The notes under the pieces were generated by a model that worked only from the letters and a program-made list of their open reading frames with translations, did not search any database and was not told the DNA's origin. A stretch of 64,000 nt of DNA from Rhodothermia bacterium (GTDB lineage: Bacteria; Bacteroidota; Rhodothermia; Rhodothermales; UBA2364), in assembly GCA_017303715.1 (NCBI GenBank), contig JAFLBZ010000005.1, positions 1-64,000 on the forward strand. Direction: 5' to 3'. The position numbers and the translations under genes are program-made. This document shows positions 17,529-38,092 of this stretch, in pieces. Within the stretch, counting starts at the first letter, position 1. The number at the start of each line of letters is the position of its first letter.

Positions 17529-18500
17529 ATGTGTGATCGCGATGAAACGGCAAAAATCATTATTCGTGAGGAACGAATTTCTCGGCAAGACCTGATCGGG
17601 CATCTGGACTGCTCTTCCAGACAAGTTGATCGCTTCATCCAGTATTTTTTGAGGGAAGACATGATTAAAAAAGAAAAAGTGGGCAAAGAGGTGTATTATG
17701 TATTAAATCCAGACCAACGACAACCAGCATTGTCTCTAATCCGTGCCACCCAAAATGAGCAATTGGTTTTGTTAATGGCCCTGAATGCCGCAAGGCAACA
17801 ATTAATGCGCACGCCATTGGCGAAGGACGCAAATCGGCTATTACATGCGGTGAACCAGCAACTGGAAATAGAAGAAGCGGAAATAGAGGATTTGCAAGAA
17901 GACCTTGTTGGTTTCCGATTGGGCGATCCTCCATTAGAGGAAATGCATCCCGATGTTTTCTTTGCTGTACATAAGGCCAAAAAAGAAAATAAAACCCTTA
18001 CCATTACCTATCAAACCGGAAGAAGTGGGCTGATTACTCGAAACCGTAAAGTGGATCCCGTTTTAATCAACTTGTCTTCATGGACGTTTGTGGCATGGTG
18101 CCATAAAAAGGGTAAACATTTAGACTTTAAGTTTTCGAGGGTGTTGGAGGTATCGCCGGAGATGGAACAGGCACGCCTGCGCCCTTTTAATCCTCAAAAA
18201 CACTTCCAAGATCGCTTTAGCCATTTGGCCGGAAATACACGCTATACCCTGACCTTGATCGTGGCTCCAGAGGTGGCTACGTATTTCAAAACCAAAAAAT
18301 ACCACGTCTCGCAAAACATCCTCGCCGAACATGAGGATGGCAGTCTAACGGTGCGTTTTGTGGTGATAAACGATGACGAAGTCGCGTCCTTTCTCCGCTC
18401 CTGGGGACCTAAAGTTGAGGTGGTAGCACCACTCAAAATGCGGAAAAGGCTATTGGAGGAGGCCGAAGCTGTTGCAGAGAAGTACAAAAAACTGCATTAA
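17529..18500 (+). CDS. WYL-domain transcriptional regulator of the CRISPR locus
   Basis: This is a 323-residue DNA-binding regulator. Residues 1-60 form a winged helix-turn-helix (ISRQDLIGHLDCSSRQVDRFIQYFL is the recognition part). A WYL ligand-binding domain covers about 150-230: LTITYQTGRSG, then SSWTFVAWCHKKG in the position of the name-giving W-Y-L, then LDFKFSRVLEV. The Y is replaced by T. The last 90 residues (YTLTLIVAPEVATYF through SFLRSWGPKVEVVAP) form the C-terminal WCX extension. WYL proteins sense ligands, often nucleotides or single-stranded nucleic acid, and several control CRISPR operons. Its position 88 bp upstream of cas6, same strand, and the palindrome at 17425-17465 support that role. 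Confidence 0.85.
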   Translation: MCDRDETAKIIIREERISRQDLIGHLDCSSRQVDRFIQYFLREDMIKKEKVGKEVYYVLNPDQRQPALSLIRATQNEQLVLLMALNAARQQLMRTPLAKDANRLLHAVNQQLEIEEAEIEDLQEDLVGFRLGDPPLEEMHPDVFFAVHKAKKENKTLTITYQTGRSGLITRNRKVDPVLINLSSWTFVAWCHKKGKHLDFKFSRVLEVSPEMEQARLRPFNPQKHFQDRFSHLAGNTRYTLTLIVAPEVATYFKTKKYHVSQNILAEHEDGSLTVRFVVINDDEVASFLRSWGPKVEVVAPLKMRKRLLEEAEAVAEKYKKLH

Positions 18501-18588
18501 AACAATGACTTAGGCAAAATCTTCTGCGGAAGTTTTTCCTATGCCCTATACACAACCAAAAACTTTAATTGAACCAAGAGGTATCCGC

Positions 18589-19278
18589 ATGAGAATCGAA
18601 ATTAAAGCGACTGTTCCGCGTGGCGGGATAGAATTTAACTATGTTTATAAGCTAAAAGGTGTGCTCCATAAATGGACAGGAAGGGATGAAAACCTACATG
18701 ATGCCCAATCTTTTTATAGCTTCGGGACGCTTAACAATAGCCGTATTGTAGATGATAAACTGATGTTTAATGGCTATGTGATGTGGCAACTGAGCTTTTG
18801 GGATATCGAGGTGGCGAAACGGGCCTTGCTCGGTATGATGCGCGATCCGAGGATGTTTGACGGCATTATGGTCATCGAGGCACGCGAATGCCCAACCCCC
18901 AACTTCGGTACGTCTTTCCGGTTTTGGGCGGATAGCCCCATTTTGGTGCGTGAAAAAAATGAACAAGGAAAACCAGTATATCTCACATGGGACAACCCAC
19001 ATACCGACGACGTGCTCACCACCTCTTTCCGCCGGAAATTAGCAAATGCTGGCTTCACCGGGGAAGACTTGGAAGCCGTTGTAACTTTTGATCGCGAATA
19101 CCCTAAGGCCAAAACCCGCCTGATACAATATAAAAACCTGCAACATAAAGCCAATGCCTGCCCCGTCTGGGTGCATGGCTCGCCCGAGGTCTTGAAATTT
19201 GCTTGGCTCGCAGGCTTGGGCGACCTCACTGGCAGTGGGTTCGGGGCCGTTAAAAGCAATGTTACCACAAAAGACTAA
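18589..19278 (+). CDS. cas6: CRISPR pre-crRNA endonuclease Cas6
   Basis: Cas6 cleaves the array transcript within each repeat to release crRNAs. The ATG at 18589 (MRIEIKATV) is chosen: it is preceded by AAGAGG at 7-bp spacing and gives the normal RRM-type beta start, while 18541 adds 16 unlikely residues. The protein has 229 residues. ENLHDAQSFYSFGTL near residue 35-48 places His37 where the family has its general acid His. The C-terminal LAGLGDLTGSGFGAVK is the glycine-rich loop diagnostic of Cas6. It is the first gene of the cas operon; cas5 starts 16 bp after its stop. A weak CTTC/GAAG hairpin with T-run (18516-18537) lies between it and the WYL gene. Confidence 0.9.
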   Translation: MRIEIKATVPRGGIEFNYVYKLKGVLHKWTGRDENLHDAQSFYSFGTLNNSRIVDDKLMFNGYVMWQLSFWDIEVAKRALLGMMRDPRMFDGIMVIEARECPTPNFGTSFRFWADSPILVREKNEQGKPVYLTWDNPHTDDVLTTSFRRKLANAGFTGEDLEAVVTFDREYPKAKTRLIQYKNLQHKANACPVWVHGSPEVLKFAWLAGLGDLTGSGFGAVKSNVTTKD

Positions 19279-19294
19279 CGGTCTGGAGATAATT

Positions 19295-20164
19295 ATGCAA
19301 CACACTCTTTTTGATGCCATTGATGAACCAACAATTGGCCAATCGGCACATTCTACATCAAAGGTCGCAGATTTCCCAAATATTGATCTTTCATTTTTTT
19401 TAGAACCGCCTGACCTAACTAAACATGCGATTTTAAAAGTTACCCCCGTCGCTCCTATCTCTTTGAATAGCGAACAGCCGGGTACGTATTACCAAAGCTT
19501 GTATAAGCCCACTTACAACATGCTCTATGGGCTTTTAGAAAATGCTTTGGGCATACATCTCCACAACCAAGATCGAAAAGAGATCATTACCTCTTTGAGA
19601 AAGAAAATAGACAAGCGTATTCGTACTTCTGATCGATGGAAAGAAAGCGCTTGGATCAAACAGAATCCTTCGGAAGAATCTTCTAAATCAGGATTCTTCA
19701 GCATCTTACAATTCCATATCGGATTTCGAGAACCCCATGTCATACCTCCATACCTCCGTTTTACAGACCTATGGGCACGGCATGTCCACTCCAATGACAC
19801 CATGTTTCCTAACGGAAGCCGAAATCACGACTACACAATGGATCGTATTCAATCTCTTAAAAGAAGTAAACAAATTAATTTTAGCGATTTAAAAAATGTC
19901 AGCATTAAAACTGCTGAACAATTGCAATCCGTACAATCAGGGGATAGTATTCACCCCAATGCAGTTCGCCCTTGGTATCCGGCCTATTACACGAGTCCTA
20001 CCCCTCGCGAATACATAGATGCCACAGGCGCTTACCAATTCCCATTTGCAAGTACACCTAAAGTGATTCAACAGCTTAAAAACGCCCTACAAGACCCCCA
20101 AGCACCCCTCTATTTGGGTAGTAATGACGGCTGGGTGGAGGTAACTTTGGAGAAACTGACATGA
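19295..20164 (+). CDS. cas5: Cascade subunit Cas5 with N-terminal extension
   Basis: Cas5 binds the 5' handle of the crRNA and caps the Cascade backbone. The ATG at 19295 (MQHTLFDAI) follows a CTGGAG sequence and gives 289 residues; the open frame back to 19199 lies inside cas6. The Cas5 core starts only at about residue 48: ILKVTPVAPISLN, then KPTYNMLYGLLENALGIHL, the standard PTxxxLYGLLxxALG signature. The C-terminal APLYLGSNDGWVEV is also typical. The first 45 residues, rich in Asp, Pro and Ser, have no counterpart in ordinary Cas5 and are longer than usual. The stop overlaps the cas8 start as ATGA, indicating translational coupling. Confidence 0.85.
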   Translation: MQHTLFDAIDEPTIGQSAHSTSKVADFPNIDLSFFLEPPDLTKHAILKVTPVAPISLNSEQPGTYYQSLYKPTYNMLYGLLENALGIHLHNQDRKEIITSLRKKIDKRIRTSDRWKESAWIKQNPSEESSKSGFFSILQFHIGFREPHVIPPYLRFTDLWARHVHSNDTMFPNGSRNHDYTMDRIQSLKRSKQINFSDLKNVSIKTAEQLQSVQSGDSIHPNAVRPWYPAYYTSPTPREYIDATGAYQFPFASTPKVIQQLKNALQDPQAPLYLGSNDGWVEVTLEKLT

Positions 20165-21669
20165 TAAACATTGAACATCCCTATACTCGATACGGTTTGG
20201 CAGTAGCCTTATTCAAAAACCGAATGCATGACATTCCTTCCTCTGAAAAGGAGCTTTGTCAACTTGTTGCCACTTCTTTAAGTGATGCCCTAAATAAAGT
20301 AAAGGTACATACCAAAGACAAGGTTTCCTCTGAAGGGGAGTCCATTTTACGATATGAATTTGTCCCTCGTGAAGCTTTAGGAGAAGGAAAACAAGACTCC
20401 AAAAACTTCTACTTTTTATCTCCCCACGTCATAACAAGTGACAAATCAACAGGCGATTTAATTAAAAGTATTGCAATACTTATGGATAACCTTGAAAGAG
20501 GTTTGGGGAATTTCAACACCAAATTGCAGCGTTCATTTTCTCCATTTACTTCAAAACTTAACCAAGGCAAATCCAGCCTAAGTGAGCCGGTTACAGATTT
20601 AATCTCGGCATCTTTAACGGCACTTGCTACAATTACGCCTTCAAAACCAGCGATGCAGATTGAGTTTAAGAATCAAGGTATGATACCGGATATCAGCTTA
20701 GAGGGAATGATTCTCTTTATTGACTTATTTGAGCGAATGGTATTTAACCAGACGGAAGGGTTGAAAATTGCTACTGTTAAGCCCAAGAGCAAGTACTTTC
20801 GACCTAAAATGCATCGAGGGAATTTTCCAAACGCTCCTTATAGCCCACTTTTTGGACCAATCAGTCTATTGGCGGCAATGGCATCTTGGGCTAAAGAAGC
20901 AGATGCTCTTCATGATTTTGAAAAAGTTCTTGCTGAGATTGTTAAGAACTCAATATATCTGGTTAGTTACGAAGGCAATCTCATGAGCCAACAAAAAATT
21001 GGCTCTCATGTTTATCGTCTTGCCCTGAGGTACAACCTTACGAATATTATTCAAGGGTTATCTCAGGTAAGTTTATACAATGAAGACGACAACAAACCCG
21101 ACAATCCCAAGCGCCAACTCTTCTTTATGATGGCAGGTCGCTTCCTCCAGTTGTATTCACCCGCTGCCTTTCAGGACTTTTTGGCTTTTCGAGGGCAGTA
21201 TCATAACAATTTTACACCTATCCTTGAGGATTACTTTATGAATGAGCATAGCATCACCCCAGAATTAGTACAGTCAGCAAGAGCATTTGGAGCTTTTCTG
21301 AATCGAGTAGCCTACCATGCTGCAAAAGCGGAAACCGATGAAAGAAAAACCAAGCGAACGCTTCATGAAGCAAAATCCAGATTCTTGGCTGAGCTAGAAA
21401 GCGTCGTCATGAACGCAAAGCAAACTTCCGAAATTTTTGCTCTGGTCAATATTCGAGCGGGTCGGATGTCTGAAATGGATGGCCCCAATGCGGCGTATCC
21501 ATTTATGGAGGCTGCACTGACGGGTCTTATTGACAAAAAGACTACACAAAATATGGTATTGGCCTTTATGCGACTGCGTAGCTCTACAGAAAGTCAGGAT
21601 GTGAAAGGTCAAGATGAATCACTTAGCGAAGATGCCTCAGAGTCCTCTTTTGAAGACCCTGAAGAATAA
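20161..21669 (+). CDS. cas8: Divergent Cascade large subunit Cas8
   Basis: This 502-residue protein is called Cas8 mainly from position (coupled to cas5, followed by cas7 and cas3) and size. In Cascade, Cas8 recognises the PAM and recruits Cas3. The N-terminal two thirds is alpha/beta with KFYFLSPHVI-like segments (here KNFYFLSPHVIT near residue 80). It has almost no cysteine and no CxxC pairs, so the zinc finger seen in many Cas8a/b proteins is absent. Residues from about 360 to 475 are purely helical and look like a small-subunit (Cas11) module; residues 476-502 are an acidic Ser/Glu-rich tail. The subtype is closest to I-B/I-A in gene content. I do not recognise a precise Cas8 family. Confidence 0.75.
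   Translation: MINIEHPYTRYGLAVALFKNRMHDIPSSEKELCQLVATSLSDALNKVKVHTKDKVSSEGESILRYEFVPREALGEGKQDSKNFYFLSPHVITSDKSTGDLIKSIAILMDNLERGLGNFNTKLQRSFSPFTSKLNQGKSSLSEPVTDLISASLTALATITPSKPAMQIEFKNQGMIPDISLEGMILFIDLFERMVFNQTEGLKIATVKPKSKYFRPKMHRGNFPNAPYSPLFGPISLLAAMASWAKEADALHDFEKVLAEIVKNSIYLVSYEGNLMSQQKIGSHVYRLALRYNLTNIIQGLSQVSLYNEDDNKPDNPKRQLFFMMAGRFLQLYSPAAFQDFLAFRGQYHNNFTPILEDYFMNEHSITPELVQSARAFGAFLNRVAYHAAKAETDERKTKRTLHEAKSRFLAELESVVMNAKQTSEIFALVNIRAGRMSEMDGPNAAYPFMEAALTGLIDKKTTQNMVLAFMRLRSSTESQDVKGQDESLSEDASESSFEDPEE
21238..21669 (+). CDS. Candidate small subunit Cas11 from an internal start in cas8
   Basis: An in-frame ATG at 21238 (Met360 of Cas8) is preceded by GAGGA at 21226-21230, leaving a 7-base spacer. 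Translation from it would give a 143-residue all-helical protein beginning MNEHSITPELVQ, ending with the acidic tail of Cas8. Length and fold class match Cas11, which is known to be produced by internal translation within cas8 or cas10d genes in types I-B, I-C and I-D. No separate cas11 gene is present in this operon. The purine-rich site stands out because most genes in this window lack one. This is inference; no expression evidence is available. Confidence 0.5.
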   Translation: MNEHSITPELVQSARAFGAFLNRVAYHAAKAETDERKTKRTLHEAKSRFLAELESVVMNAKQTSEIFALVNIRAGRMSEMDGPNAAYPFMEAALTGLIDKKTTQNMVLAFMRLRSSTESQDVKGQDESLSEDASESSFEDPEE

Positions 21670-21698: not shown

Positions 21699-22610
21699 AT
21701 GAAAAACATTAAAGGTATCTCCATTGTACTCTTGGCTAAAATGGAAAACCATATTGCCAATGGCGGAGAAAAGCTACTCGGAAATGCTTCTTCCATTAAG
21801 CGTCGTCCTGATGGTCGTGTTTATATCTCAGGGCAAATGCAACGTCAAGCACTATTTCGTGCTGTGGAGCGGTTAAACCTCGAAAGTGAAGATCGAGGCG
21901 ATACGTATGTTTCAAATGGTGACGGCATTACCAACCAGATTGAAAAAGATTTACGTGCAGATATGGGCGGCTGGATGCACCCTTCTGGTGGTAACTATTC
22001 TGGAAGAAGAACGGCTCCTATATCAGCTACTTTTGCTGTAGCGCTTGAAGAAAGTGAGCTTGGGCGGGATTTACTTATTCGGCTTAAGCAAAATCCCGAT
22101 ACGGATTCTACCAAGGATCAGGCACTTGCCACACGTGAGTTTAGCCAATCTGATGACATGCAAATGGCTTTTCATTTAGATGTATCTGCGCTTAGTATTA
22201 GCCGCCGATTTAGTTATGCAAACGAACTACATGTAAAGACTGACTTCATCAAACATGTTGATGAAAATGAACGCAACAGACGTGCTAAACTATTCATTAA
22301 TGCAACTCGCTACATCACAGACTACGCTAATCAAGCGCGGAATGCTTCTACGGGCGAACCAATCAAGGTTTTAATTGTCTTGGACACCAAATTGAGCAGA
22401 AAATGTGCCCGATATTTCAGTATGGATGCCATTGAGCAGGAAAATCTAATGGCTGAATTAGAAGATCGCGGTGCGCTCGTTTTTGTTGGGGATGACAAAC
22501 AAACAGGGAAACCTGTTTACAAAGCTTATCAGGAAGCTTTGGCAGCCATTGAAAGTTTGTATGACCCATCTGGGGATGCAGAACCAACACCTTTCTCTGA
22601 AAGCGCATAA
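21699..22610 (+). CDS. cas7: Cascade backbone subunit Cas7 (DevR/Csa2/Cst2 type)
   Basis: Cas7 polymerises along the crRNA spacer to form the Cascade backbone. It has 303 residues. The N-terminal ISIVLLAKMENHIANGGE followed by KRRPDGRVYISGQMQRQALFRAVE matches the DevR-type Cas7 signature (basic residues, then xISGQxxRxALFRA). The segment APISATFAVALEES near residue 105 and DVSALSISRRFSY near 165 are further family marks. It starts 29 bp after cas8 and ends about 90 bp before cas3. The DevR-type Cas7 points to subtype I-B or I-A. The C-terminal tail is acidic and probably disordered. Confidence 0.88.
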   Translation: MKNIKGISIVLLAKMENHIANGGEKLLGNASSIKRRPDGRVYISGQMQRQALFRAVERLNLESEDRGDTYVSNGDGITNQIEKDLRADMGGWMHPSGGNYSGRRTAPISATFAVALEESELGRDLLIRLKQNPDTDSTKDQALATREFSQSDDMQMAFHLDVSALSISRRFSYANELHVKTDFIKHVDENERNRRAKLFINATRYITDYANQARNASTGEPIKVLIVLDTKLSRKCARYFSMDAIEQENLMAELEDRGALVFVGDDKQTGKPVYKAYQEALAAIESLYDPSGDAEPTPFSESA

Positions 22611-22703: not shown

Positions 22704-25031
22704 ATGAGCACACTTGCCAAATCATCCGGAATTACCCTACGCCAGCATACAAACCACGTTATTGAAGAAGTTTTGCATATTTTAGATTGTTTCCCATTTA
22801 TAGAAAATAAATATAAACAATTAACGACACTTGACCTTCGAGCCATGTCCTTAAACTGTGCAGAATATCATGACAAAGGAAAAGCCCACAAGACTTGGCA
22901 ATCTGCATGTAAAGCAGACTATGAACAATATGAACGATGGTGTAAACAAACTGATATATCGCCGACGATTGATGCCTATCATCAATATGAGCAATATGCC
23001 CATAAAAATAAAATAGGCAGTAAGCTACTTAGTACAAGGCTTCGTCATGAATTTGCCTCATTAGAATGGCTGGATGCGCAAAAGATAACCTTGTCATGGA
23101 TTGAGCGTGCAGCAATTGCAGCCCATCATGGTAAGCTTGGATATAAATTTGAAGAACGGTGGCTTAATGATGGAAAGTCTTTAAACAAATCTGAAGGACC
23201 TTATAAAAAATTCTGGAATGAGTTTAGAAACCATCAAAATACTGCAAGAACTAAAGATTCATTTATTGAAGCATTAAATAAGCGTTACCAACTTAGCGCT
23301 GTTAGATCACTACTCCAATTAGCTGATACGCGAGCGAGCAGAAAAGAGTCAGGAGGATGGCTCCCTCCTTTCACCCCCTTTCAATACAACTTCCCTCATT
23401 GCGACCAAAATGGAAACCCGTCTTATCGTGGCGTGCAAGCTGTTGTTCAACAGTATTGGGATGAGCCTACCTTAATTCTTAGAGCACCCACAGGTAGTGG
23501 GAAAACGGATGCAAGTTTGTTATGGGCAAAACATCAAATACAAAAGAATCGGGCAGATCGTTTAGTTATTGCGATGCCAACTCGCTTTACTTCAAATGCT
23601 TTATCAATAAACATTAATGAAAGTGTAAGCGATACAGGATTGTACCATTCAAGTGCTTGGTATTCAAGGTTCCAAAAAACAGCGAAGGAGCAAAAGACTG
23701 ATCTAAATAATGCCAAAGAAGTCCACAAATTAGCGCGTCTTTTAAATACCCCAGTAACCGTAAGTACAATAGATCATCTGCTCATCTCACTAACAGGAAC
23801 GAGAGAAGATCACCACGCGATCTTCTTTAATCTTATGAATGCTTGTGTTGTGATTGATGAAGCAGACTTCTATGACCCTTTTGTACAAGCTAATATGGTA
23901 GTTTTGCTGAACGTACTTAAATATTTTCATGTTCCGGTTCTTATCATGAGCGCGACTGTTCCTGCATCCGCAAAAAAATTATACGCAATACCTGTAATTG
24001 CAGAAGATACTAGTCAGATTTATCACGCTAAAGCATCAATTAAGGTCTATGACCATATGTATTCTTTAGATGATCTGAATGAACTGTTAAAATTGGCAAT
24101 GGAACAACCATCTATTATATATGCCAATACGGTTGAGAGGGCTGTTCAGTATTATGATTGGTTTACAGAGCGGGGATTTTTATTCACAAAACTTTACCAT
24201 AGCCGGTTTACAGAACCAGATAAAGCAAGAATTGAAGCCGAACTCATTGAGATGCTTGGAAAAAAAGCTTGGGTAGAAGGTAGTGCAAAAGGTATTGCCA
24301 TCATGACACAAATTGGGGAAATGAGTATCAATATTAGTGCACCATTCATGATAAGCGACCTATGTCCATATGACCGTTTAGCACAGAGAGCAGGGCGCCT
24401 TAACCGTTTTACAGATGATCCCGGACATCTCCATGTTGTCATCCCTTATAAAAACAGTGAACTTTACCCTGCCCCATATGGGTCATATGATTTGAGCCAT
24501 AAAGTTTGGATCGCAGGAAAGGCATTTCAAGCTACTCAGGCAACCATCAAGAACAAGTCCTATGCCCCCGCAGATTTTGTGGACGAGGTCAATAAACTTT
24601 ATCCTATGCCTGAACCGATGTCCGGAAAAATTGAACTCAATGTTAATGCCTTAAATAACCACCTTGAGAATCACTGGATGATTATACCCTTGGCTAAGTT
24701 AGAAGAAGATGCGGAAGAAACGGGGCATTGGAAGAGCAGAGACATTGATCCTCAGTGCAAGGTCTTTGTTAATATTGATGATAATGATGAAATTTATGAT
24801 GAAACAAAAGAGAAATATCGAGTACGTTCATGGGGGGATTTTAGAGGTCTTGAATTAGAATGCGCAATTAGCATTCCTATTTATGAGCGGGATAAAGGTG
24901 CAAAGTCCGATAGAATTATAGCAAGAACCATCCTAATTGATGACGTTGAACTACCGTTTTGGTACGCACCTTATTATGATAAAAACCGTGGATTGTACTT
25001 CGATCATGAACAAAAATCAAACATATACTAA
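22704..25031 (+). CDS. cas3: CRISPR effector nuclease-helicase Cas3
   Basis: Cas3 is recruited by target-bound Cascade, nicks the displaced strand and degrades DNA processively. The 775 residues begin with an HD nuclease domain: QHTNHV near residue 15, EYHDKGKAH near 52 (the HD pair), RHEFAS near 110 and AAHHGKLG near 140. The SF2 helicase follows: APTGSGKTDASL (Walker A) near 260, VVIDEADFYDP (DExD box) near 385, IMSATVP (motif III) near 420 and DRLAQRAGRLNRF (motif VI) near 565. All catalytic motifs are intact. Its base composition is distinctly A+T-richer than cas4, which follows after 1 bp. Confidence 0.95.
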   Translation: MSTLAKSSGITLRQHTNHVIEEVLHILDCFPFIENKYKQLTTLDLRAMSLNCAEYHDKGKAHKTWQSACKADYEQYERWCKQTDISPTIDAYHQYEQYAHKNKIGSKLLSTRLRHEFASLEWLDAQKITLSWIERAAIAAHHGKLGYKFEERWLNDGKSLNKSEGPYKKFWNEFRNHQNTARTKDSFIEALNKRYQLSAVRSLLQLADTRASRKESGGWLPPFTPFQYNFPHCDQNGNPSYRGVQAVVQQYWDEPTLILRAPTGSGKTDASLLWAKHQIQKNRADRLVIAMPTRFTSNALSININESVSDTGLYHSSAWYSRFQKTAKEQKTDLNNAKEVHKLARLLNTPVTVSTIDHLLISLTGTREDHHAIFFNLMNACVVIDEADFYDPFVQANMVVLLNVLKYFHVPVLIMSATVPASAKKLYAIPVIAEDTSQIYHAKASIKVYDHMYSLDDLNELLKLAMEQPSIIYANTVERAVQYYDWFTERGFLFTKLYHSRFTEPDKARIEAELIEMLGKKAWVEGSAKGIAIMTQIGEMSINISAPFMISDLCPYDRLAQRAGRLNRFTDDPGHLHVVIPYKNSELYPAPYGSYDLSHKVWIAGKAFQATQATIKNKSYAPADFVDEVNKLYPMPEPMSGKIELNVNALNNHLENHWMIIPLAKLEEDAEETGHWKSRDIDPQCKVFVNIDDNDEIYDETKEKYRVRSWGDFRGLELECAISIPIYERDKGAKSDRIIARTILIDDVELPFWYAPYYDKNRGLYFDHEQKSNIY

Positions 25032-25032
25032 T

Positions 25033-25548
25033 ATGCAAATTGGTGGTATGCTTTTGGGGTACTACAACCTCTGCCCGAGAAAAGCTTGGTTATCGGCCAG
25101 CGGTATCGAGATGGAGCAGGAGTCCGAGGCGGTGGCATTGGGTCGGTTGTTACATGAGACGTCTTATGAGCGGACGGATAAAGAGGTGCTTTTGGAGGCG
25201 GTTTATCAGGGGGTGACCTTGGTGGGGAAGTTGGATGGGGCAAATCTAAGAGACAAAGTTCTCTATGAAGTCAAGAAAAGCAAATCGGCGGAGGAGTCAC
25301 ATATTTGGCAGATCAAGTTTTATCTGTGGTTATTGGCTTTGTCCGGAAAACCCGAATTTACGGCGGAAATCCGTTATCCTTTGCTACGCAAGACCCAAGA
25401 AGTGGTTTTGGAGGAAGGCGATGCCGAGAAGTTGGGGGAGATGGTGTTGCGGCTTGCCGAGTTGCTACGTGCCGAAACCCCGCCAGACCGGATTCTGCAA
25501 AGGAAGTTCTGTGCCAAGTGTGCTTATGAAGAGTACTGTTATGCGTAA
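25033..25548 (+). CDS. cas4: CRISPR adaptation exonuclease Cas4
   Basis: Cas4 trims prespacers and helps select the PAM end during adaptation. The ATG at 25033 (MQIGGMLLGYYN) starts 1 bp after the cas3 stop and aligns with the short N-terminus usual in Cas4; 25006 would add nine residues overlapping cas3. The protein has 171 residues. One cluster-ligand Cys is in YYNLCPRKAWL and three more are in CAKCAYEEYC at the end, making a complete 4Fe-4S set. The RecB-type nuclease core is visible as LGRLLHE, GKLDG, LYEVKKSKS and HIWQIKFYLWLL (QxxxY). It lies directly before cas1 and cas2. It is visibly G+C-richer than cas3. Confidence 0.92.
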   Translation: MQIGGMLLGYYNLCPRKAWLSASGIEMEQESEAVALGRLLHETSYERTDKEVLLEAVYQGVTLVGKLDGANLRDKVLYEVKKSKSAEESHIWQIKFYLWLLALSGKPEFTAEIRYPLLRKTQEVVLEEGDAEKLGEMVLRLAELLRAETPPDRILQRKFCAKCAYEEYCYA

Positions 25549-25569: not shown

Positions 25570-26655
25570 ATGAAAAGACCTTATTATATATTCTCAAGTG
25601 GGCGGCTTAAACGAAAGGATAATACGCTTTATCTGTATAAAATGGAGGGAGAGCGACAACCAGATGATAGCCCAGAGGCCGACGGTGCGCCCTCGGGAGC
25701 TGTCTTATCTGATAAATCGGTTTTGCCAATAGAGCAAGTAGAAGCGTTGTATTGTTTCGGAGAAATAGACCTGAACTCTAAGCTCATTACCTTTTTGGGC
25801 CAGCATCAAACTCCGGTTTTTTTCTTTGATTATTATGGCAACTTCACCGCAGCATTGTACCCGCGAGAGGCGCTGCTCTCTGGAAGGCTACATGTGGCAC
25901 AGGCGCGGCATTACCTAAAGCCTGCTTGGCGTATAAAACTGGCGCGTGCCTTTGTGGAAGCGGCGGCATATAACATCTTGCGTGTGCTTAAATATTACCA
26001 AACCCGTGTTACAGATGCACAGCAAACGGGCTTACAAGCAGGAATAGCACGGATTGAGATGTTGCGTGGACAGACGACCGCGTTTAACGAGGTGCAAGCA
26101 CTGATGGGCATCGAAGGTAACATCCGAGACACTTATTATTCGATGTGGGCCCACATTTTGGGAGAGGATGTCGCCAAAAAATTCCCTTTCGAGCGCAGAG
26201 AGAAAAACCCGCCCTCGAACGAAATGAATGCGCTTATCAGTTTTGGCAATGCTTTGTGTTATGGAACGGTACTTCGGCAAATTTATAGAACACCATTAGA
26301 CCCAACCATTAGTTATTTGCATGAGCCGGGAGACCGCCGTTTTTCATTGGCTTTGGATTTGAGCGAGGTGTTTAAGCCGTTATTGGTGGATCGTGCCATT
26401 TTTAAAATGCTCAAAACCAATGTCATTCAGCCCAAACATTTTGAGCCGAGGCTGGGAGGCGTATATCTAAAAGAAAGTGGCAGGCAAATTTTTGTGCAAC
26501 ATTGGGATGAGCGGCTAAGGACGGTCATTCAACACCGATCGCTTAACAGAAAGGTGAGCTACGAACGGCTGATCCGGTTAGATTGTTACGCCTTGATGAG
26601 GCACTTAATTGACCCAGACAAAGAGCCTTATACAGGTTTTAAAATGTGGTGGTAA
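25570..26655 (+). CDS. cas1: CRISPR integrase Cas1 with acidic N-terminal insertion
   Basis: Cas1 is the metal-dependent integrase that inserts new spacers with Cas2. It has 361 residues, about 25-30 more than most type I-B Cas1 proteins. The excess is visible at residues 24-52: after the conserved YYIFSSGRLKRKDNTLYLYK comes an acidic, Pro/Gly/Ser-rich stretch (GERQPDDSPEADGAPS) before the usual IPIEQVEALYCFGE-like segment (here LPIEQVEALYCFGEIDLN). The metal ligands are present: Glu in ALMGIEGNIRDTYY, His in SYLHEPGDRRFSLA, and the acidic residue in LDLSEVFKP. It ends GFKMWW, a common Cas1 terminus. The cas2 start is 6 bp downstream. Confidence 0.95.
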   Translation: MKRPYYIFSSGRLKRKDNTLYLYKMEGERQPDDSPEADGAPSGAVLSDKSVLPIEQVEALYCFGEIDLNSKLITFLGQHQTPVFFFDYYGNFTAALYPREALLSGRLHVAQARHYLKPAWRIKLARAFVEAAAYNILRVLKYYQTRVTDAQQTGLQAGIARIEMLRGQTTAFNEVQALMGIEGNIRDTYYSMWAHILGEDVAKKFPFERREKNPPSNEMNALISFGNALCYGTVLRQIYRTPLDPTISYLHEPGDRRFSLALDLSEVFKPLLVDRAIFKMLKTNVIQPKHFEPRLGGVYLKESGRQIFVQHWDERLRTVIQHRSLNRKVSYERLIRLDCYALMRHLIDPDKEPYTGFKMWW

Positions 26656-26661
26656 AAGAGC

Positions 26662-26925
26662 ATGTTTGTTATTGCTGTTTATGATGTAGAAGCAAAGCGC
26701 TGTGCCAAAATGCTGAAACTTTTCAGGCAGTATTTGGTTTGGGTGCAAAATTCCGTCTTTGAGGGCGAATTAACGGAGTCGCAGTACAAAGCTTTGCAAC
26801 AACGCGCCCTTAAGCTTATGGATCCTTTGACGGATAGTGTGGTCTTTTATCAATTGGGCCACGAAAAATATGTTCGACGACATGCCTTAGGTATTGAAAA
26901 AGAAGAACATAGCCGCTTTATCTAA
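26662..26925 (+). CDS. cas2: CRISPR adaptation protein Cas2
   Basis: Cas2 dimerises and bridges two Cas1 dimers in the integrase complex. It has 87 residues, the normal size. The N-terminal MFVIAVYDVEAKRCAKMLK gives the ferredoxin-fold first strand with the conserved Asp. The pattern LFRQYLVWVQNSVFEGELTE is the usual second part, and DSVVFYQL is the third strand. It is the last gene of the cas operon and is followed by the array leader. The tail (RRHALGIEKEEHSRFI) ends with a Phe-Ile pair as often seen in type I-B. Confidence 0.95.
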   Translation: MFVIAVYDVEAKRCAKMLKLFRQYLVWVQNSVFEGELTESQYKALQQRALKLMDPLTDSVVFYQLGHEKYVRRHALGIEKEEHSRFI

Positions 26926-27131: not shown

Positions 27132-30100
27132 CTTTTAATCGCACCTTCGGGTATTGAAATTACAAAGTAGTGCTTTCGACGTCGAACATAAATATGTCTT
27201 TTAATCGCACCTTCGGGTATTGAAATTAAGACCCAGAAATTTCATTCCGTTTCCAGACCCCTTTTAATCGCACCTTCGGGTATTGAAATGCGGTTTTTAG
27301 TGATCTTTCACGGTGTGAGTTAACCTTTTAATCGCACCTTCGGGTATTGAAATATTTTGAACCCATCAACATAATCTGAAGTCATCTCCACTTTTAATCG
27401 CACCTTCGGGTATTGAAATTTCTGCACTTGCCCAGCCGCAATCGCCGTCGTCCACTTTTAATCGCACCTTCGGGTATTGAAATCAGTGCCGCTTTTTGGG
27501 ATGAAACGGCATGGGATGACTTTTAATCGCACCTTCGGGTATTGAAATTTTTGTTTGTTTTCCAAATAAGTTTAATTGGTTATGCTTTTAATCGCACCTT
27601 CGGGTATTGAAATATCGAAGCCAAAAACCGTTCATACGCCGCCGCCACTTCTTTTAATCGCACCTTCGGGTATTGAAATTTCATACGCCGCCGCCACTTC
27701 AGGTATTGATTTAATCTTTTAATCGCACCTTCGGGTATTGAAATCTGAAAAAGCCCGGGCAACGCTTTTGGCGTTGAATGCTTTTAATCGCACCTTCGGG
27801 TATTGAAATTTCTAGTTTCTTCGTTATATTTAGGTTTAGCACCCGCTTTTAATCGCACCTTCGGGTATTGAAATTAGCTATCGTTTCCGTGCCCGTCCTT
27901 CCATTGTAAGCCTTTTAATCGCACCTTCGGGTATTGAAATGCGTTTGTCAGGTTCGCACCTTTGAAGTTTGCCCCCCCTTTTAATCGCACCTTCGGGTAT
28001 TGAAATGTGGGTAAAACCATTCTGGTTTCTCCATTTCATCCACTTTTAATCGCACCTTCGGGTATTGAAATTCGTGTATTCATGATGTCGGATATTACGA
28101 TCTTTAGTCTTTTAATCGCACCTTCGGGTATTGAAATAAGTTGGGCGGTCAATTATCTGGCCATCAATCCCAGCTTTTAATCGCACCTTCGGGTATTGAA
28201 ATTTTCTTGCCTTCTGCTCTATTAAGCGAAGGTATCCTCTTTTAATCGCACCTTCGGGTATTGAAATTCACAATGCTTGTGAATGGAACCCTTTTACATT
28301 CAACTTTTAATCGCACCTTCGGGTATTGAAATCTTCTATATACATCAATGTCCCCAACCCCATCGTGGCTTTTAATCGCACCTTCGGGTATTGAAATGCG
28401 TTTATGATTTTATTAAAATATGCGCGTCACTGCTTTTAATCGCACCTTCGGGTATTGAAATTTCCAAAACGCACCTGAGTGGCGAAGTAGCCAAGGTGCT
28501 TTTAATCGCACCTTCGGGTATTGAAATTTATCCGTTTCAGGATTCTCTTTTTGCCCAAGATGCTTTTAATCGCACCTTCGGGTATTGAAATTTTTGTTTG
28601 TTTTTTAACTTGAACACAATATAGAACACTTTTAATCGCACCTTCGGGTATTGAAATTTACCCTGAACTCTAGGTAGGCGGAATAGCGTACCCTTTTAAT
28701 CGCACCTTCGGGTATTGAAATGAATTTGGAGAATTGAAGCCTGTCCCAGATCAAAAGGCTTTTAATCGCACCTTCGGGTATTGAAATAAATCGTTGTGGC
28801 TATCAATTACACCACTCAGAACCTTTTAATCGCACCTTCGGGTATTGAAATCTTGTATTGTCGGCAATTATTGCGATAATGACGGACTTTTAATCGCACC
28901 TTCGGGTATTGAAATTTTTCGGTTCCGGTGCTGGTGGCATCGCATTTTTTACTTTTAATCGCACCTTCGGGTATTGAAATGAAACTATCCATCGCATGAT
29001 CATTCATTTTCAGCGCTTTTAATCGCACCTTCGGGTATTGAAATACTTCCACACGCCTAAACCCAATCCTTGCCCCTAACTTTTAATCGCACCTTCGGGT
29101 ATTGAAATTCAGGATTGTAAACGGGGTCTTTTAGTTGACCTTCGCTTTTAATCGCACCTTCGGGTATTGAAATGAAAGCGATGGAGTATTTGCCCGTCGA
29201 ATCTTGACCCTTTTAATCGCACCTTCGGGTATTGAAATATCGCTTGTGCTACATCCTCAGTGCTTGCCTGTGTCTTTTAATCGCACCTTCGGGTATTGAA
29301 ATTTCCTTTCAGGTATTTCACAAGTTTGTCTTTGTCCCCTTTTAATCGCACCTTCGGGTATTGAAATCTCATTTGCCAAAGAAAAGACCGATACAGCCTT
29401 TTCTCTTTTAATCGCACCTTCGGGTATTGAAATTTCAATGTCTTTGAAACAGCATTTAACGAGGTTTTACTTTTAATCGCACCTTCGGGTATTGAAATGA
29501 CGATCCAAAAATGGATTTCATACCCATCAACACCCTTTTAATCGCACCTTCGGGTATTGAAATTTCATGCGCCGCCGCCACTTCAGGTATTGATTTAATA
29601 CTTTTAATCGCACCTTCGGGTATTGAAATTAGAATACTACTGTGGTGGTTATAACTGTCGTCACGCTTTTAATCGCACCTTCGGGTATTGAAATTTTCTA
29701 CAAAGACGCATCAGGAGTTGGTCTCACGCTTTTAATCGCACCTTCGGGTATTGAAATAATACACGTAAATCCAATAAATCTCAACCCTAAACACTTTTAA
29801 TCGCACCTTCGGGTATTGAAATCAAATTCGGCCTCAAACATTGGGGAACCTGACTTCTTTTAATCGCACCTTCGGGTATTGAAATTCGGATTTTGGTTCA
29901 TCGTTTGACACCACGACCGTTCTTTTAATCGCACCTTCGGGTATTGAAATGAAATGCAACACAGTTGTTTTTTGATAAACTTTATGTCTTTTAATCGCAC
30001 CTTCGGGTATTGAAATTTCACATTTATCGGGATGTTTATAATTGGGTTGTTACTTTTAATCGCACCTTCGGGTATTGAAATTTGGATGAACTCGGCGGTC

Positions 30101-33100
30101 TGGCACGGCTTGGTTTTCCTTTTAATCGCACCTTCGGGTATTGAAATAAGATTTGCCAAACTACAAGATGCTAACCTTGAAGCTTTTAATCGCACCTTCG
30201 GGTATTGAAATATTTTTAAACTTATTCAAGCGCCAATCGGATGATACTTTTAATCGCACCTTCGGGTATTGAAATCTTTGAATTACTATCGAAGGAAGGC
30301 ATGGCTCTTTGTCTTTTAATCGCACCTTCGGGTATTGAAATAAGTCGGGTTTTCACCTGCGGCAAGTAGTAACCCAGCCTTTTAATCGCACCTTCGGGTA
30401 TTGAAATTTATTTCCAAAGATTGTTCTGGAAATATTACAGGTCTTTTAATCGCACCTTCGGGTATTGAAATTGTAAAAGAGTGCGGGATAGAGGGTTTGC
30501 GGAAGCCTTTTAATCGCACCTTCGGGTATTGAAATTTTCATCCCAAAAAGCGGCACTGCCGGAAAAACGCTTTTAATCGCACCTTCGGGTATTGAAATCG
30601 AGCATTGACGTGGGATCAAGGAACCTTGAAATGACTTTTAATCGCACCTTCGGGTATTGAAATATCCAAACTTTGGGCAAGCGGACAAGCGATCATCGCC
30701 TTTTAATCGCACCTTCGGGTATTGAAATAAAACAATAGCCCCCCCAATGATGGAAACAAGCCCACTTTTAATCGCACCTTCGGGTATTGAAATTCGTCAT
30801 TAAAAACGAGCTTTATTTAGCTGGTGAGACTTTTAATCGCACCTTCGGGTATTGAAATGCGGGTAACACGGTAACTTCGGCATTGACAACGGCGCTTTTA
30901 ATCGCACCTTCGGGTATTGAAATTTTCTTTGGCGGGAGAAATCGTTTCTCTTGTGAAAACCTTTTAATCGCACCTTCGGGTATTGAAATCGAAATTTTTT
31001 AGAGGCTTGTTCCGGTTTGTCAACACTTTTAATCGCACCTTCGGGTATTGAAATTTCACACTTTTCTCAAAATGCCCTAACAATTCCCCTTTTAATCGCA
31101 CCTTCGGGTATTGAAATACGTTTCCCGTGATAACATAGCCGCCCGAAGCAAGCTCTTTTAATCGCACCTTCGGGTATTGAAATGCCTTATAGCTCATTCA
31201 ATGAGACTACCAAATTGACACTTTTAATCGCACCTTCGGGTATTGAAATTAACGTTCACTGCTGTACTGACACCGACCGACCAAGCTTTTAATCGCACCT
31301 TCGGGTATTGAAATATTGAACCCTGAAATGATATTTGACGTGTTACGGACTTTTAATCGCACCTTCGGGTATTGAAATCCTCATGCCCCGCAATTTGATA
31401 ATCGCGGAGGGCAAACTTTTAATCGCACCTTCGGGTATTGAAATGAATTGAGGAGGTGATGAATGCACATGACGAATCGTCTTTTAATCGCACCTTCGGG
31501 TATTGAAATCAAACTCATAGGCATGAAGGTGTTCTTCATGATTGCCCCTTTTAATCGCACCTTCGGGTATTGAAATTTTTTTTTAATAGCGCAATTTGGG
31601 AATCGGTAGCCGCCTTTTAATCGCACCTTCGGGTATTGAAATCTTTGTCGATGCTAACTTAACGTTGGCACGTTTTACTTTTAATCGCACCTTCGGGTAT
31701 TGAAATTTGACCTCAAATCTACAATCGCTTATTAGTGGATACTTTTAATCGCACCTTCGGGTATTGAAATTCCCATCGGCAAAAGCCGCGTGAACGGCGC
31801 TTGTGCTTTTAATCGCACCTTCGGGTATTGAAATACAAATAAGGATTTATTTGTTTGATTTTGGCGGCGCTTTTAATCGCACCTTCGGGTATTGAAATAT
31901 GGGATGTTCGTGGCTTCCTGAGTGACATCAAGTCTTTTAATCGCACCTTCGGGTATTGAAATTTGTTTATTAATAATTGATTTAGGTACACCTTGACACT
32001 TTTAATCGCACCTTCGGGTATTGAAATACAACGCTTTAACCAATTCTTTATTCGCCTGTATCCTTTTAATCGCACCTTCGGGTATTGAAATAACGCTCAC
32101 GGGATCATCACGGGTGGTATCGAAATCTTTTAATCGCACCTTCGGGTATTGAAATCATTTAAAAATTTGTCTGGACAATATCAATCTGGGGCACTTTTAA
32201 TCGCACCTTCGGGTATTGAAATAAAAATATTTACTTCTTTGCGGCTAAGGTCGCTCCCTTTTAATCGCACCTTCGGGTATTGAAATGTCTTGAGGAACGT
32301 CGCTTTCCAAACGGGAACAAACGCTTTTAATCGCACCTTCGGGTATTGAAATTTGCATTGGGTGTACCGAACGCTTTCGTAAATGGTTCTTTTAATCGCA
32401 CCTTCGGGTATTGAAATTCCTTAGCGATTAGCCAATTTATTAGGGCAATAGGGCTTTTAATCGCACCTTCGGGTATTGAAATTTTGTTCATCAAATTATT
32501 ATACCATAATAAATTTTCTTTTAATCGCACCTTCGGGTATTGAAATAAAGCACAGGACAGCAGATGTGCGGAAACGGACAGGCTTTTAATCGCACCTTCG
32601 GGTATTGAAATTTCTATCGGCCTCTGCGATGGCCTCCTTAAAACTGACTTTTAATCGCACCTTCGGGTATTGAAATTTCGGCCTTATAATGTGATTCGCT
32701 GATTCTGCGAACTTTTAATCGCACCTTCGGGTATTGAAATTCCCAAGCCCGTCTTTAAAGAACCTGCATAACTGGCTTTTAATCGCACCTTCGGGTATTG
32801 AAATTTCCTTTCAGGTATTTCACAAGTTTGTCTTTGTCCCTTTTAATCGCACCTTCGGGTATTGAAATAGATCGCATAGCACGCGACAGAGAAATGGAAG
32901 AGGCTTTTAATCGCACCTTCGGGTATTGAAATTTCTGTGTTTCAGGTATATCAAATTAGCCTCTGTCACTTTTAATCGCACCTTCGGGTATTGAAATCTC
33001 CTTGTTCTTGTTTCGGTATTGTCCACGAGATGCTTTTAATCGCACCTTCGGGTATTGAAATTTTTTAGCTCCATGATGGTATTTTCCCATGTGTCCCCTT

Positions 33101-36100
33101 TTAATCGCACCTTCGGGTATTGAAATATAGGCTTGATCCCAGCGGCGTTGAACAACCAAAACACTTTTAATCGCACCTTCGGGTATTGAAATCCGCATAC
33201 GCAAGATGCGGATGTGTCCGGTAGGGCGGCTTTTAATCGCACCTTCGGGTATTGAAATCTTGGTTATCAATCATGATCAAGGAACGAACGATGCTTTTAA
33301 TCGCACCTTCGGGTATTGAAATGAAAGTTCACTTTCAAGGCTCCCAATGTATTCACTACTTTTAATCGCACCTTCGGGTATTGAAATTGGCCAAGGCGCT
33401 GAAGGGTGACCATGGCGGGTTTCTTTTAATCGCACCTTCGGGTATTGAAATCAGCATGATACAAATACTGCGTATCGTCAGCGTCTTCTTTTAATCGCAC
33501 CTTCGGGTATTGAAATTCTTGGTGTCCCTCAGATATAGAAACCCGTGATCACTTTTAATCGCACCTTCGGGTATTGAAATTCGGCACAGAACAGCCACAA
33601 AAAGCGCCCTAAATCATCTTTTAATCGCACCTTCGGGTATTGAAATAAATTGGGCTGGTTCTCAAGGCTGAGATGAAATCGCACTTTTAATCGCACCTTC
33701 GGGTATTGAAATTTGTGGTTTGGCAGGCATGGCATTGGATGGTTCCCGCTTTTAATCGCACCTTCGGGTATTGAAATGTCAATAACCTCGCTTAGTAACG
33801 GGTCGTTAAGCGCTTTTAATCGCACCTTCGGGTATTGAAATCAGACCATTACGATGGTGCGCGCGTGCTGGGGAATCCTTTTAATCGCACCTTCGGGTAT
33901 TGAAATGAACGACGGGAGCGCTCGGCGAGCATCTTGTTCACCTCTTTTAATCGCACCTTCGGGTATTGAAATCCAGCAGGCTTTGCGTTGGGCACGGTTG
34001 ATCCTGCTTTTAATCGCACCTTCGGGTATTGAAATTTTTTTTCTCCGTTTTGGTTATTGTTTAGTTCCTTCTTTTAATCGCACCTTCGGGTATTGAAATT
34101 TGTATTTTTCCTGCTCTTTTTGAATCACCTTCGCACTTTTAATCGCACCTTCGGGTATTGAAATTCTGGCGTTTTGTCTTCAAGAGACATCACGTCAAAC
34201 TTTTAATCGCACCTTCGGGTATTGAAATGAACATTCTTTTGTCCACCAGATAGATACCAGCAGGCTTTTAATCGCACCTTCGGGTATTGAAATTAGTTCT
34301 GAAGCCTCAGATTTTAAATCTTCGGCCTTCTTTTAATCGCACCTTCGGGTATTGAAATCGTGCCATAACTTATCCTATCGGTGTCAAATGTTTCTTTTAA
34401 TCGCACCTTCGGGTATTGAAATGAATCTGTTGTGAACTGGACAGAACGTGATGGGGCTATACTTTTAATCGCACCTTCGGGTATTGAAATTTGATAAAGA
34501 AGGGAATGCAATCTTAGTTACACACTTTTAATCGCACCTTCGGGTATTGAAATGCCAATATATTGCCCTGTGAACCCAAATTCCCGTCCCTTTTAATCGC
34601 ACCTTCGGGTATTGAAATTATGGTTCGATGCAATGTGATTGGGATAAGGCCGTGCTTTTAATCGCACCTTCGGGTATTGAAATTGCTTTGCGATGTGGCG
34701 GTTCCAAGGCACTTACTTTCTTTTAATCGCACCTTCGGGTATTGAAATCGATGGTTGAGTTTTATTCAATTTATCCTTCCCCACTTTTAATCGCACCTTC
34801 GGGTATTGAAATTTTTTGTCAGGAACTGGCCTCAACTCGCCAAACTCCTTTTAATCGCACCTTCGGGTATTGAAATTCAATGGCTATTTCTGTATAACGA
34901 GTATCAAAATGCTTTTAATCGCACCTTCGGGTATTGAAATCCTACTTTGATGGTAGTTTCACCTGCTTTGCTTCCGCTTTTAATCGCACCTTCGGGTATT
35001 GAAATACTTCCCGATAAGATGGTTTGCATAAGTCGGTATCCCTTTTAATCGCACCTTCGGGTATTGAAATGCTATGGTAGGTGCATATCCACTTAGGACT
35101 TTCTGTGCTTTTAATCGCACCTTCGGGTATTGAAATTGTTATCCACATGGTGTAAAAGAGCCTGCGTCTGACGCTTTTAATCGCACCTTCGGGTATTGAA
35201 ATGACTGGTATAGATTAAACATTGAAGGCTCAAGTGCCCTTTTAATCGCACCTTCGGGTATTGAAATCACCGCAACACGTTGCCCAAACTGGTCAATAGA
35301 CCCTTTTAATCGCACCTTCGGGTATTGAAATTTATTGATCCTTCTTTTCTTCTCTTCTTCACTCTTACTTTTAATCGCACCTTCGGGTATTGAAATTTCT
35401 TCTTGAGTATCAAGAAGGAGCTTGGAAGATGTCTTTTAATCGCACCTTCGGGTATTGAAATTTGTTTTCTTTCGTCAAAATCAACCATTACACCCCACTT
35501 TTAATCGCACCTTCGGGTATTGAAATACGATAGGAGGTGTTAGGGTTAAATCAAATTGCTTTCTTTTAATCGCACCTTCGGGTATTGAAATTAAGGTAAA
35601 TCTGCAAGGATTAACTGAACTGATTTACTTTTAATCGCACCTTCGGGTATTGAAATACATTTAATAAACGAAATTGAAGCGCAAATTAGGGAGCTTTTAA
35701 TCGCACCTTCGGGTATTGAAATACAGCACAAATTTCAACTCATTTGCCATTACACCTCCTTTTAATCGCACCTTCGGGTATTGAAATTTGTTTTTTTATA
35801 CGTTTTTTATAAGCCATCCGGTCCTTTTAATCGCACCTTCGGGTATTGAAATTTGGGATACGGTTCCTAAAGGCAACCGCTTAACTTACTTTTAATCGCA
35901 CCTTCGGGTATTGAAATTCAAATTTCGCAAATACTGCTCTGCCAGTGGTGCAACTTTTAATCGCACCTTCGGGTATTGAAATAAGGGGGGACTCTGGAAT
36001 ACACCGCCCCTCATTGTGCCTTTTAATCGCACCTTCGGGTATTGAAATAATTTTCCAGTTCTCGTCGGTACAATCTCCAAATACCCACTTTTAATCGCAC

Positions 36101-36828
36101 CTTCGGGTATTGAAATGTCAATTAATTTCGAGTCAATCATTGAGAACCTCGCTTTTAATCGCACCTTCGGGTATTGAAATGACGATCAAACATGCGGTTG
36201 ATCTGGCAGAGGTTTCTTTTAATCGCACCTTCGGGTATTGAAATGCAATTCTCTAACAGATGAAGTCGCCCGCTTTCCAACTTTTAATCGCACCTTCGGG
36301 TATTGAAATGCGGAATGGTACGTTGAAGGGATGGCGGTTCATGTTCTTTTAATCGCACCTTCGGGTATTGAAATTCGGGATAGCCCTGTCTCCGCGCTCG
36401 TAATTTGCCCACTTTTAATCGCACTTTCGGGTATTGAAATCAAAGAGGGGTACGTCCACCCGCGTTCCGCTTGGAACCTTTTAATCGCACCTTCGGGTAT
36501 TGAAATGTCGCAAGTACTGACAGAATCAAATATAAAAATGCTTTTAATCGCACCTTCGGGTATTGAAATCCAAAACTGACAAACAACCGTGCGACTGCCG
36601 AGAAACTTTTAATCGCACCTTCGGGTATTGAAATTATGATATTACATATGACTTTTTGCGTAGGGCAATACTTTTAATCGCACCTTCGGGTATTGAAATT
36701 TTAGGCGCACGCCGTCTGGGCGTATAAATTGCGCACTTTTAATCGCACCTTCGGGTATTGAAATGATTCATACTGATGCCTCCAATATTTTACCACGCAC
36801 TTTTAATCGCACCTTCGGGTATTGAAAT
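27132..36828 (+). CRISPR. Type I CRISPR array, 150 repeats of 29 bp
   Basis: I counted 150 repeats by hand, from 27132-27160 to 36800-36828, with a mean period of 64.9 bp. Spacers are 34 to 39 bp, mostly 35-37. The repeat starts CTTTTAATCG, has ACCTTCGGGT in the middle and ends ATTGAAAT. All copies are identical as far as I can read except repeat 144 (36412-36440), where CACCTT is CACTTT. The last eight bases match the AUUGAAA(N) handle left by Cas6 in types I-A/I-B, so crRNAs are read on the + strand, away from cas2. The centre ACC-TTCG-GGT can form a short stem with a cUUCGg tetraloop. The only repeat variant lies at the far end, which agrees with leader-proximal growth. Several spacers are related to one another. 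Confidence 0.99.
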
Positions 36829-37156: not shown

Positions 37157-38092
37157 TTACTGTCCAATATCTGCTTTACCGGCTTCTTTTCGCAAATAGA
37201 TCATGGTGGTATCAAAAGTACCGTGCCGCATCCTCTTTTTGAGTTCCTCGACCGTCATCCCCTGACGAAGCCAAATGAGGGCTGCTGTATGGGTAAGGCT
37301 ATGTGGTGTAATTCCGGCACGCTTAATGCCTGCCAAATCCAACCAATGGTTAATCCTTCCGCGAACAGAACGGGTATTTAGGCGCTCACCTTCTGAACGA
37401 TGTCCGTGAGAAACAAAGATGGGTTCTTCGGGACGAATCCGGCCTCTGGTGTCCAAATAAAGTCTGATTTTATCCATAACCGGCGGATCAATCGGAACCA
37501 ATTGGTCTTTATCGGAACGACCTTTTCCCTGAACCCGCAAATACCAAGTTCCAGACTCGTATTGGTTCAAATCCTCTAAATCTGCTCGCACAATTTCAAT
37601 TTCCCCCAAGCCTGCATAAAGCATCATGTACATCATGGCTTGGTCGCGCTTCCCCATTTGCGTCACTTGGTCGAAGGATGAGGCCAGTTGTTCTACTTCT
37701 ACTTCGTTAAGAACTGCGCGGGTGTGCTCCGTGGGTCTGCGGTTTCCTTTTACCTGTTTTGCTGGATTTTCTGGAAGCTGACCCGTAGCAACCATAAAAT
37801 CACAAAGGCGACGAAGGGCGGTTAAATAGGTTGAAACAGAGACTTGAGACAACTTGCGATCAGTCATGAGGTAGGTTTTATATGCCTCAATATCCTGAAC
37901 ACGAAACCTAAAATCGCTACGTGGGTGAGCAAACCATCGGACAAACTCGTTTAACGATCTACGGTAAGTACCAACCGTTTCTACTCCTTTATCATGAAGA
38001 TACTCGTCTAAAAATGAGGTAAGGGTCGTTTCTAATCCATCCAAAGTCAGGTTAATCCCTTGGAATGTTTCTGAAGTAAAATTATCCGCCAT
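37157..38092 (-). CDS. Tyrosine recombinase-fold protein lacking both catalytic arginines
   Basis: This 311-residue protein has the XerC/D layout: an N-terminal SAM-like core-binding domain (residues 15-105, including VETVGTYRRSLNEFVRWF) and a C-terminal catalytic domain. Of the six catalytic residues, the beta-hairpin Lys (VQGKGRSDK), the His of MRHGTFDTT and the Tyr of TTMIYLRK are present. The first Arg, normally in GLRxSE, is replaced: YAGLGEIEIV. The second Arg, normally in HxLRH, is replaced: HSLTHTAA. Without either Arg normal strand cleavage is not expected. It may be a DNA-binding remnant or an accessory partner of an active recombinase. It is 52 bp upstream, in direction of transcription, of nothing obvious: it follows the E2 gene on the same strand. 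Confidence 0.8.
   Translation of the reverse strand: MADNFTSETFQGINLTLDGLETTLTSFLDEYLHDKGVETVGTYRRSLNEFVRWFAHPRSDFRFRVQDIEAYKTYLMTDRKLSQVSVSTYLTALRRLCDFMVATGQLPENPAKQVKGNRRPTEHTRAVLNEVEVEQLASSFDQVTQMGKRDQAMMYMMLYAGLGEIEIVRADLEDLNQYESGTWYLRVQGKGRSDKDQLVPIDPPVMDKIRLYLDTRGRIRPEEPIFVSHGHRSEGERLNTRSVRGRINHWLDLAGIKRAGITPHSLTHTAALIWLRQGMTVEELKKRMRHGTFDTTMIYLRKEAGKADIGQ

Follow-up and report, generated by a model that had tools for sequence, protein, structure and literature searches.

The question raised by this locus is which short motif beside a target the resident CRISPR-Cas system recognizes, and on which side of the protospacer that motif lies. The window, meaning the whole stretch of 64,000 nucleotides analysed here (Rhodothermia bacterium, contig JAFLBZ010000005.1), carries on its + strand a WYL regulator, cas6, cas5, cas8b, cas7, cas3, cas4, cas1 and cas2, in this order, then a long array. 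The regulator, with a WYL/WCX domain (17529..18500), lies upstream of the cas operon, which begins with cas6 (18541..19278; PF01881; Cas6b 1.2e-64) and cas5 (19199..20164; PF09704; Cas5c PGING 6.8e-31, Cas5b 5.9e-26), the listed reading frame of cas5 overlapping cas6 with its start unrefined. These are followed by cas8b (Csp2, PGING variant; 20161..21669; Cas8b 8.6e-89), cas7 (Csp1; 21699..22610; PF01905; Cas7 PGING 1.5e-124, Cas7b 2.8e-122), cas3 with HD and helicase parts (22704..25031; Cas3b 2.2e-73), cas4 (24937..25548; PF01930 3.4e-39; Cas4b; start unrefined), cas1 (25570..26655; PF01867 4.1e-85; Cas1b) and cas2 (26662..26925; PF09827 5.7e-22). The type I-B effector set is entirely present (Cas8b large subunit, Cas7, Cas5, Cas6 and Cas3), together with the adaptation module (Cas4, Cas1 and Cas2). 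For Cas7 and Cas8, matches were obtained to the PGING models (Csp1, Csp2) as well as to the I-B models, and the strength of the PGING matches is what the locus shares with the PGING I-B variant (Porphyromonas gingivalis type). We identify the locus as a type I-B CRISPR-Cas system of the PGING (Csp1/Csp2) variant, complete and encoded by a Bacteroidota genome; the closest named relative of its Cas1 is that of Bacteroidetes bacterium UBA2364 (82%).

The array (27132..36828, + strand) consists of 150 repeats of 29 nt and 149 spacers of 34-39 nt, the latter spanning 27161-36799. Its repeat, CTTTTAATCGCACCTTCGGGTATTGAAAT, is identical in 149 of the 150 copies, and the odd copy, which lies towards the distal end (36412-36440), carries one change. 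Since this changed repeat lies near the right end and cas2 just to the left, we placed the leader on the left and read the + strand as the crRNA sense. Every spacer of the window array is preceded by a repeat ending in AAT, the final base being always T; the last repeat base varies (C, G or T) within single arrays of Pontibacter, Rufibacter and one order relative (L012, L016 and L089). Just past the distal end of the array, a tyrosine recombinase of the phage integrase family is encoded on the - strand (37157-38092).

Overlaps between spacers of the same array allow the flank of one protospacer to be read from another spacer. An earlier, sequence-only reading had used two such overlaps to derive the 5' flanks of protospacers 9, 53 and 6. 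On recheck, spacers 6 (27484..27519), 8 (27614..27650), 9 (27680..27715) and 53 (30536..30569), all on the + strand, matched exactly at these coordinates; the final 20 nt of spacer 8 are the initial 20 of spacer 9, the initial 23 nt of spacer 6 are the reverse complement of the initial 23 nt of spacer 53, and the three derived flanks were recovered as first written. Spacer 8 thus gives the 5' flank ...AAAAACCG of protospacer 9, which ends in ...CCAAAAACCG, spacer 6 gives the 5' flank TCATCCCATGCCG of protospacer 53, and spacer 53 gives the 5' flank CGTTTTTCCGG (TTTCCGG) of protospacer 6. Two further cases had been overlooked: spacer 38 (29564..29600, + strand) is a near-copy of spacer 9, in which protospacer 9 was re-acquired with an identical start, one base changed and one base more in length, and spacer 34 (29303..29338, + strand) is also present as spacer 88 (32805-32839), the two sharing 35 nt and an identical start with lengths of 36 and 35. 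Exact shared runs of at least 20 nt were found in four pairs among the 149 spacers, and 30 shuffles gave none of at least 16 nt; spacer overlaps of such length are not due to chance.

Further flanks were obtained from related genomes. The family comprises three genomes in the genome set used, all of one genus, and the two sister genomes, G001 and G002, share the repeat of the window array, with one base changed in G001. The pool of these three same-genus genomes amounts to 512 spacers (149 from the window, 107 and 256 usable ones from G001 and G002, respectively). The array of G002 on contig C18 (57379-74050) is longer, with 257 repeats, and several of its spacers are present two to three times. 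Spacer 42 of the window (29823..29856, + strand) receives from the sister-genome spacer G1a16 the 5' flank TTATCAACCG (ACCG), spacer 45 (30017..30052, + strand) receives from G1b4 the 5' flank CGATAAACCA (ACCA), and spacer 45 in turn gives the 5' flank TAACAACCCA (CCCA) of G1b4. The six independent flanks of the genus are therefore ACCG for spacer 9, GCCG for spacer 53, ACCG for spacer 42, ACCA for spacer 45, CCCA for G1b4 and CCGG for spacer 6, that is, five of six are CCR (CCG three times, CCA twice), with spacer 6 as the exception. Two order relatives with the same repeat family gave ACCA and GCCT. Taken together, CC occupies positions -3/-2 in 7/8 overlap flanks (six of the genus, two of the order; binomial 6.5e-9), and a value of 7 was reached by no column pair when eight 8-base flanks were simulated 20000 times. 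The sample is small, with six genus overlaps, two order overlaps and the nine diverged prophage sites described below; the arrays of Dyadobacter, Pontibacter, Rufibacter, Botryobacter and one Bacteroidota MAG held no informative overlaps.

The side on which acquisition is anchored was indicated by spacers acquired twice. Nine re-acquired pairs were found whose members are of unequal length or carry substitutions (34/88, 9/38, 111 with G2_5, G1a8 with G2_3, and G2 163/188, 96/183, 59/60, 18/23 and 23/27), and the 5' start is common to all nine; most of them vary by 1-2 bases at the 3' end and the rest by substitutions. A constant 5' start in re-acquired spacers argues for an anchor at the 5' end, as expected from a PAM on that side. 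A duplication followed by an indel may have given rise to some of the pairs, an origin that does not easily account for the pairs with substitutions or those in different genomes. The fixed start also bears on the idea that the CC signal is a by-product of phage codon context or base composition instead of a PAM. The prophage protospacers do sit in coding DNA, as this idea would have it, but CC makes up only about 5% of dinucleotides at these compositions, seven of eight in one register has a probability of 6.5e-9, and the constant 5' start requires an anchor on that side; we consider this idea very improbable.

A third set of flanks came from a Mu-like prophage resident in the same genome (contig C2, approximately 34000-63000; L081 and L082), with genes for a transposase, a transposition protein, a terminase, a portal, a head protease, a major head protein and a tape measure. 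In a stretch of 39 kb it holds nine diverged protospacers, matched at 77-91% identity by spacers from each of the three genus genomes, and a control with reversed spacers gave no match on this stretch. The other stretches scanned gave no protospacer except for one weak match of a G002 spacer (28/36, near 1887 of G001 contig C116, L085, flank CTA); this contig of 25 kb may be another mobile element. No match of the spacers was found in the related prophage of G003 or in the remainder of the window. The prophage sites lie in coding DNA, and at each site the mismatches concentrate in a single codon phase (44 of 57 in total), which indicates that they are real homologues that have drifted at synonymous bases. 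CCG itself is found in two of the nine flanks, five others (TCG, CGG, CTG, CTG and GCG) depart from CCG only where their own reading frame has its wobble base, and the last two (CAA and TCA) depart from CCR at a non-wobble base. With the wobble base masked, 7/9 flanks are compatible with CCG, the background probability being 0.068 (p 2e-7, a generous value since the masking was devised after the flanks had been seen), and CCG ranks first of the 64 triplets. The array is in this way tied to the resident prophage. Spacer 143 (36375..36411, + strand) matches it at 32/37 (contig C2, 43639; flank CTCGG), with all five mismatches in one codon phase and two of them within the first five bases; together with the CGG flank, these mismatches would explain how spacer and prophage share one cell. 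A relative of the prophage terminase (55%) is encoded on contig C83 of G003, and a protein scan of IMG/VR with this terminase gave nothing.

The flank of spacer 6 had been explained in the sequence-only reading by a slip, in which acquisition missed the motif by one base and left a G between CCG and the spacer. TTTCCGG does hold CCG one base further out, but a shift of the start is seen in none of the nine re-acquired pairs, the flank is read from spacer 53, possibly from a variant phage with a different PAM, and CGG is also found at the prophage site matched by spacer 143, its -2 position falling on a wobble base. A PAM that drifted from one source phage to the other accounts for this flank as well as a slip does, and we give the slip an even chance.

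The same earlier reading had placed a PAM of CCG or CCN on the 5' side. The side and the CC at -3/-2 were upheld by the overlap flanks and by the prophage, and CCG alone proved too narrow and was rejected because CCA occurs. A CCN motif with no preference at -1, the purine bias then being a matter of small sample or a property of the targeted phages, is known in other I-B systems (PMC8406132 and PMC8482600) and agrees with the T found at -1 in one order relative (CCT). Against it, the base at -1 is A or G in 15/15 flanks of the genus (six overlaps and nine prophage sites), for which the chance is about 3e-5 at even odds, and this broader motif appears to us possible but the less probable form. 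The best statement is CCR with G preferred at the third base. We propose with high confidence that the PAM of this complete PGING-variant I-B system is 5'-CCR (mostly CCG or CCA), occupying positions -3 to -1, immediately 5' of the protospacer in the crRNA sense, that Cas4-Cas1-Cas2 prespacers would be measured from this motif, and that the same motif is to be expected for interference by Cas8b. Flanks, fixed starts and prophage sites all point to a short PAM lying 5' of the protospacer, as in type I-B; the motif, its side and the fixed spacer start are all shown by comparison of sequences.

In the mechanism that we propose by analogy with known I-B and other type I systems, Cas4-Cas1-Cas2 would measure the prespacer from the CCR motif, so that the 5' end of the spacer would be fixed and its 3' end would vary by 1-2 bases, Cas4 being the likely reader of the PAM in acquisition. 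In Cascade, Cas8b would be the likely reader, and the same motif is expected to be necessary for interference. Since the AAT at the end of the repeat mismatches the motif, the array itself would be spared.

Exact targets were also searched for in sequence collections. A blastn search of the whole window array and the arrays of G002 and G001 (contig C57) against 50,697 phage records gave no usable protospacer. One hit, H1 in Escherichia phage BUCT618, was set aside, its 52-base match (83%) crossing a repeat, and the sole plasmid match, obtained in a search with the first half of the array, was to a Salinibacter plasmid and was also discarded as a many-piece match resembling a CRISPR array. Pattern scans of IMG/VR with the shared spacers gave no exact target, and the window array searched against 114 genomes of the order gave, outside the genus, only matches resembling related arrays. 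As no exact protospacer outside spacers was found in the collections searched, none of the flanks comes from the very phage that the spacer was taken from.

PAMs given for I-B by Vink et al. 2021 (PMC8482600) are CCA, CCN and CCT, and in the I-B system of Clostridioides difficile CCN serves both acquisition and interference, AAT having been tested and found inactive (PMC8406132). With a CCN-type PAM already known for I-B, that of the window system is ordinary for its class. The likeness to C. difficile extends to the 5' position (CCN in acquisition, YCN in interference; PMC8406132) and to a repeat end, AAT, that is a non-working PAM, whereas C. difficile belongs to another phylum and has multiple arrays, and only CCR has been seen so far in the genus studied here. 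The I-B repeat clusters in the available text of PMC8482600 agree with the window system in the class and side of the PAM but derive their PAMs from mapping of spacers to targets, whereas ours comes from overlap between spacers; that text names no representative of the window lineage, and it gives the CCN of Porphyromonas under I-C. In the open-licence papers searched, we found no published PAM for the PGING variant of I-B and none for the window lineage. Our data provide a usable target rule for type I-B in a little-known lineage of Bacteroidota, the phages of which are absent from the collections searched, and show that, given long arrays and sister genomes, spacers by themselves are enough to derive a PAM.

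A more speculative and, in our view, rather unlikely proposal is that in I-B systems of Bacteroidota sequence governs the choice of both prespacer ends, with CCR setting the 5' end, a weak preference (a final A, and A or C two bases beyond) setting the variable 3' end, and with G avoided at +2 and A/T preferred at +6. For the 19 protospacers whose 3' flank could be read (from overlaps and prophage), the second base past the spacer is A or C in 17/19 and the fourth is G in 11/19; with many columns compared, this bias may be due to chance, or else reflect a weak second motif. The ends of the 512 spacers are non-random, with a bias against G and towards T at position +2 (p 2e-8), towards A/T at position +6 (7e-7) and towards A at the last base (4e-8). 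Position +6 is the base flipped out by type I complexes, and its bias is seen again among 427 spacers of the order and among 292 of other Bacteroidota relatives.
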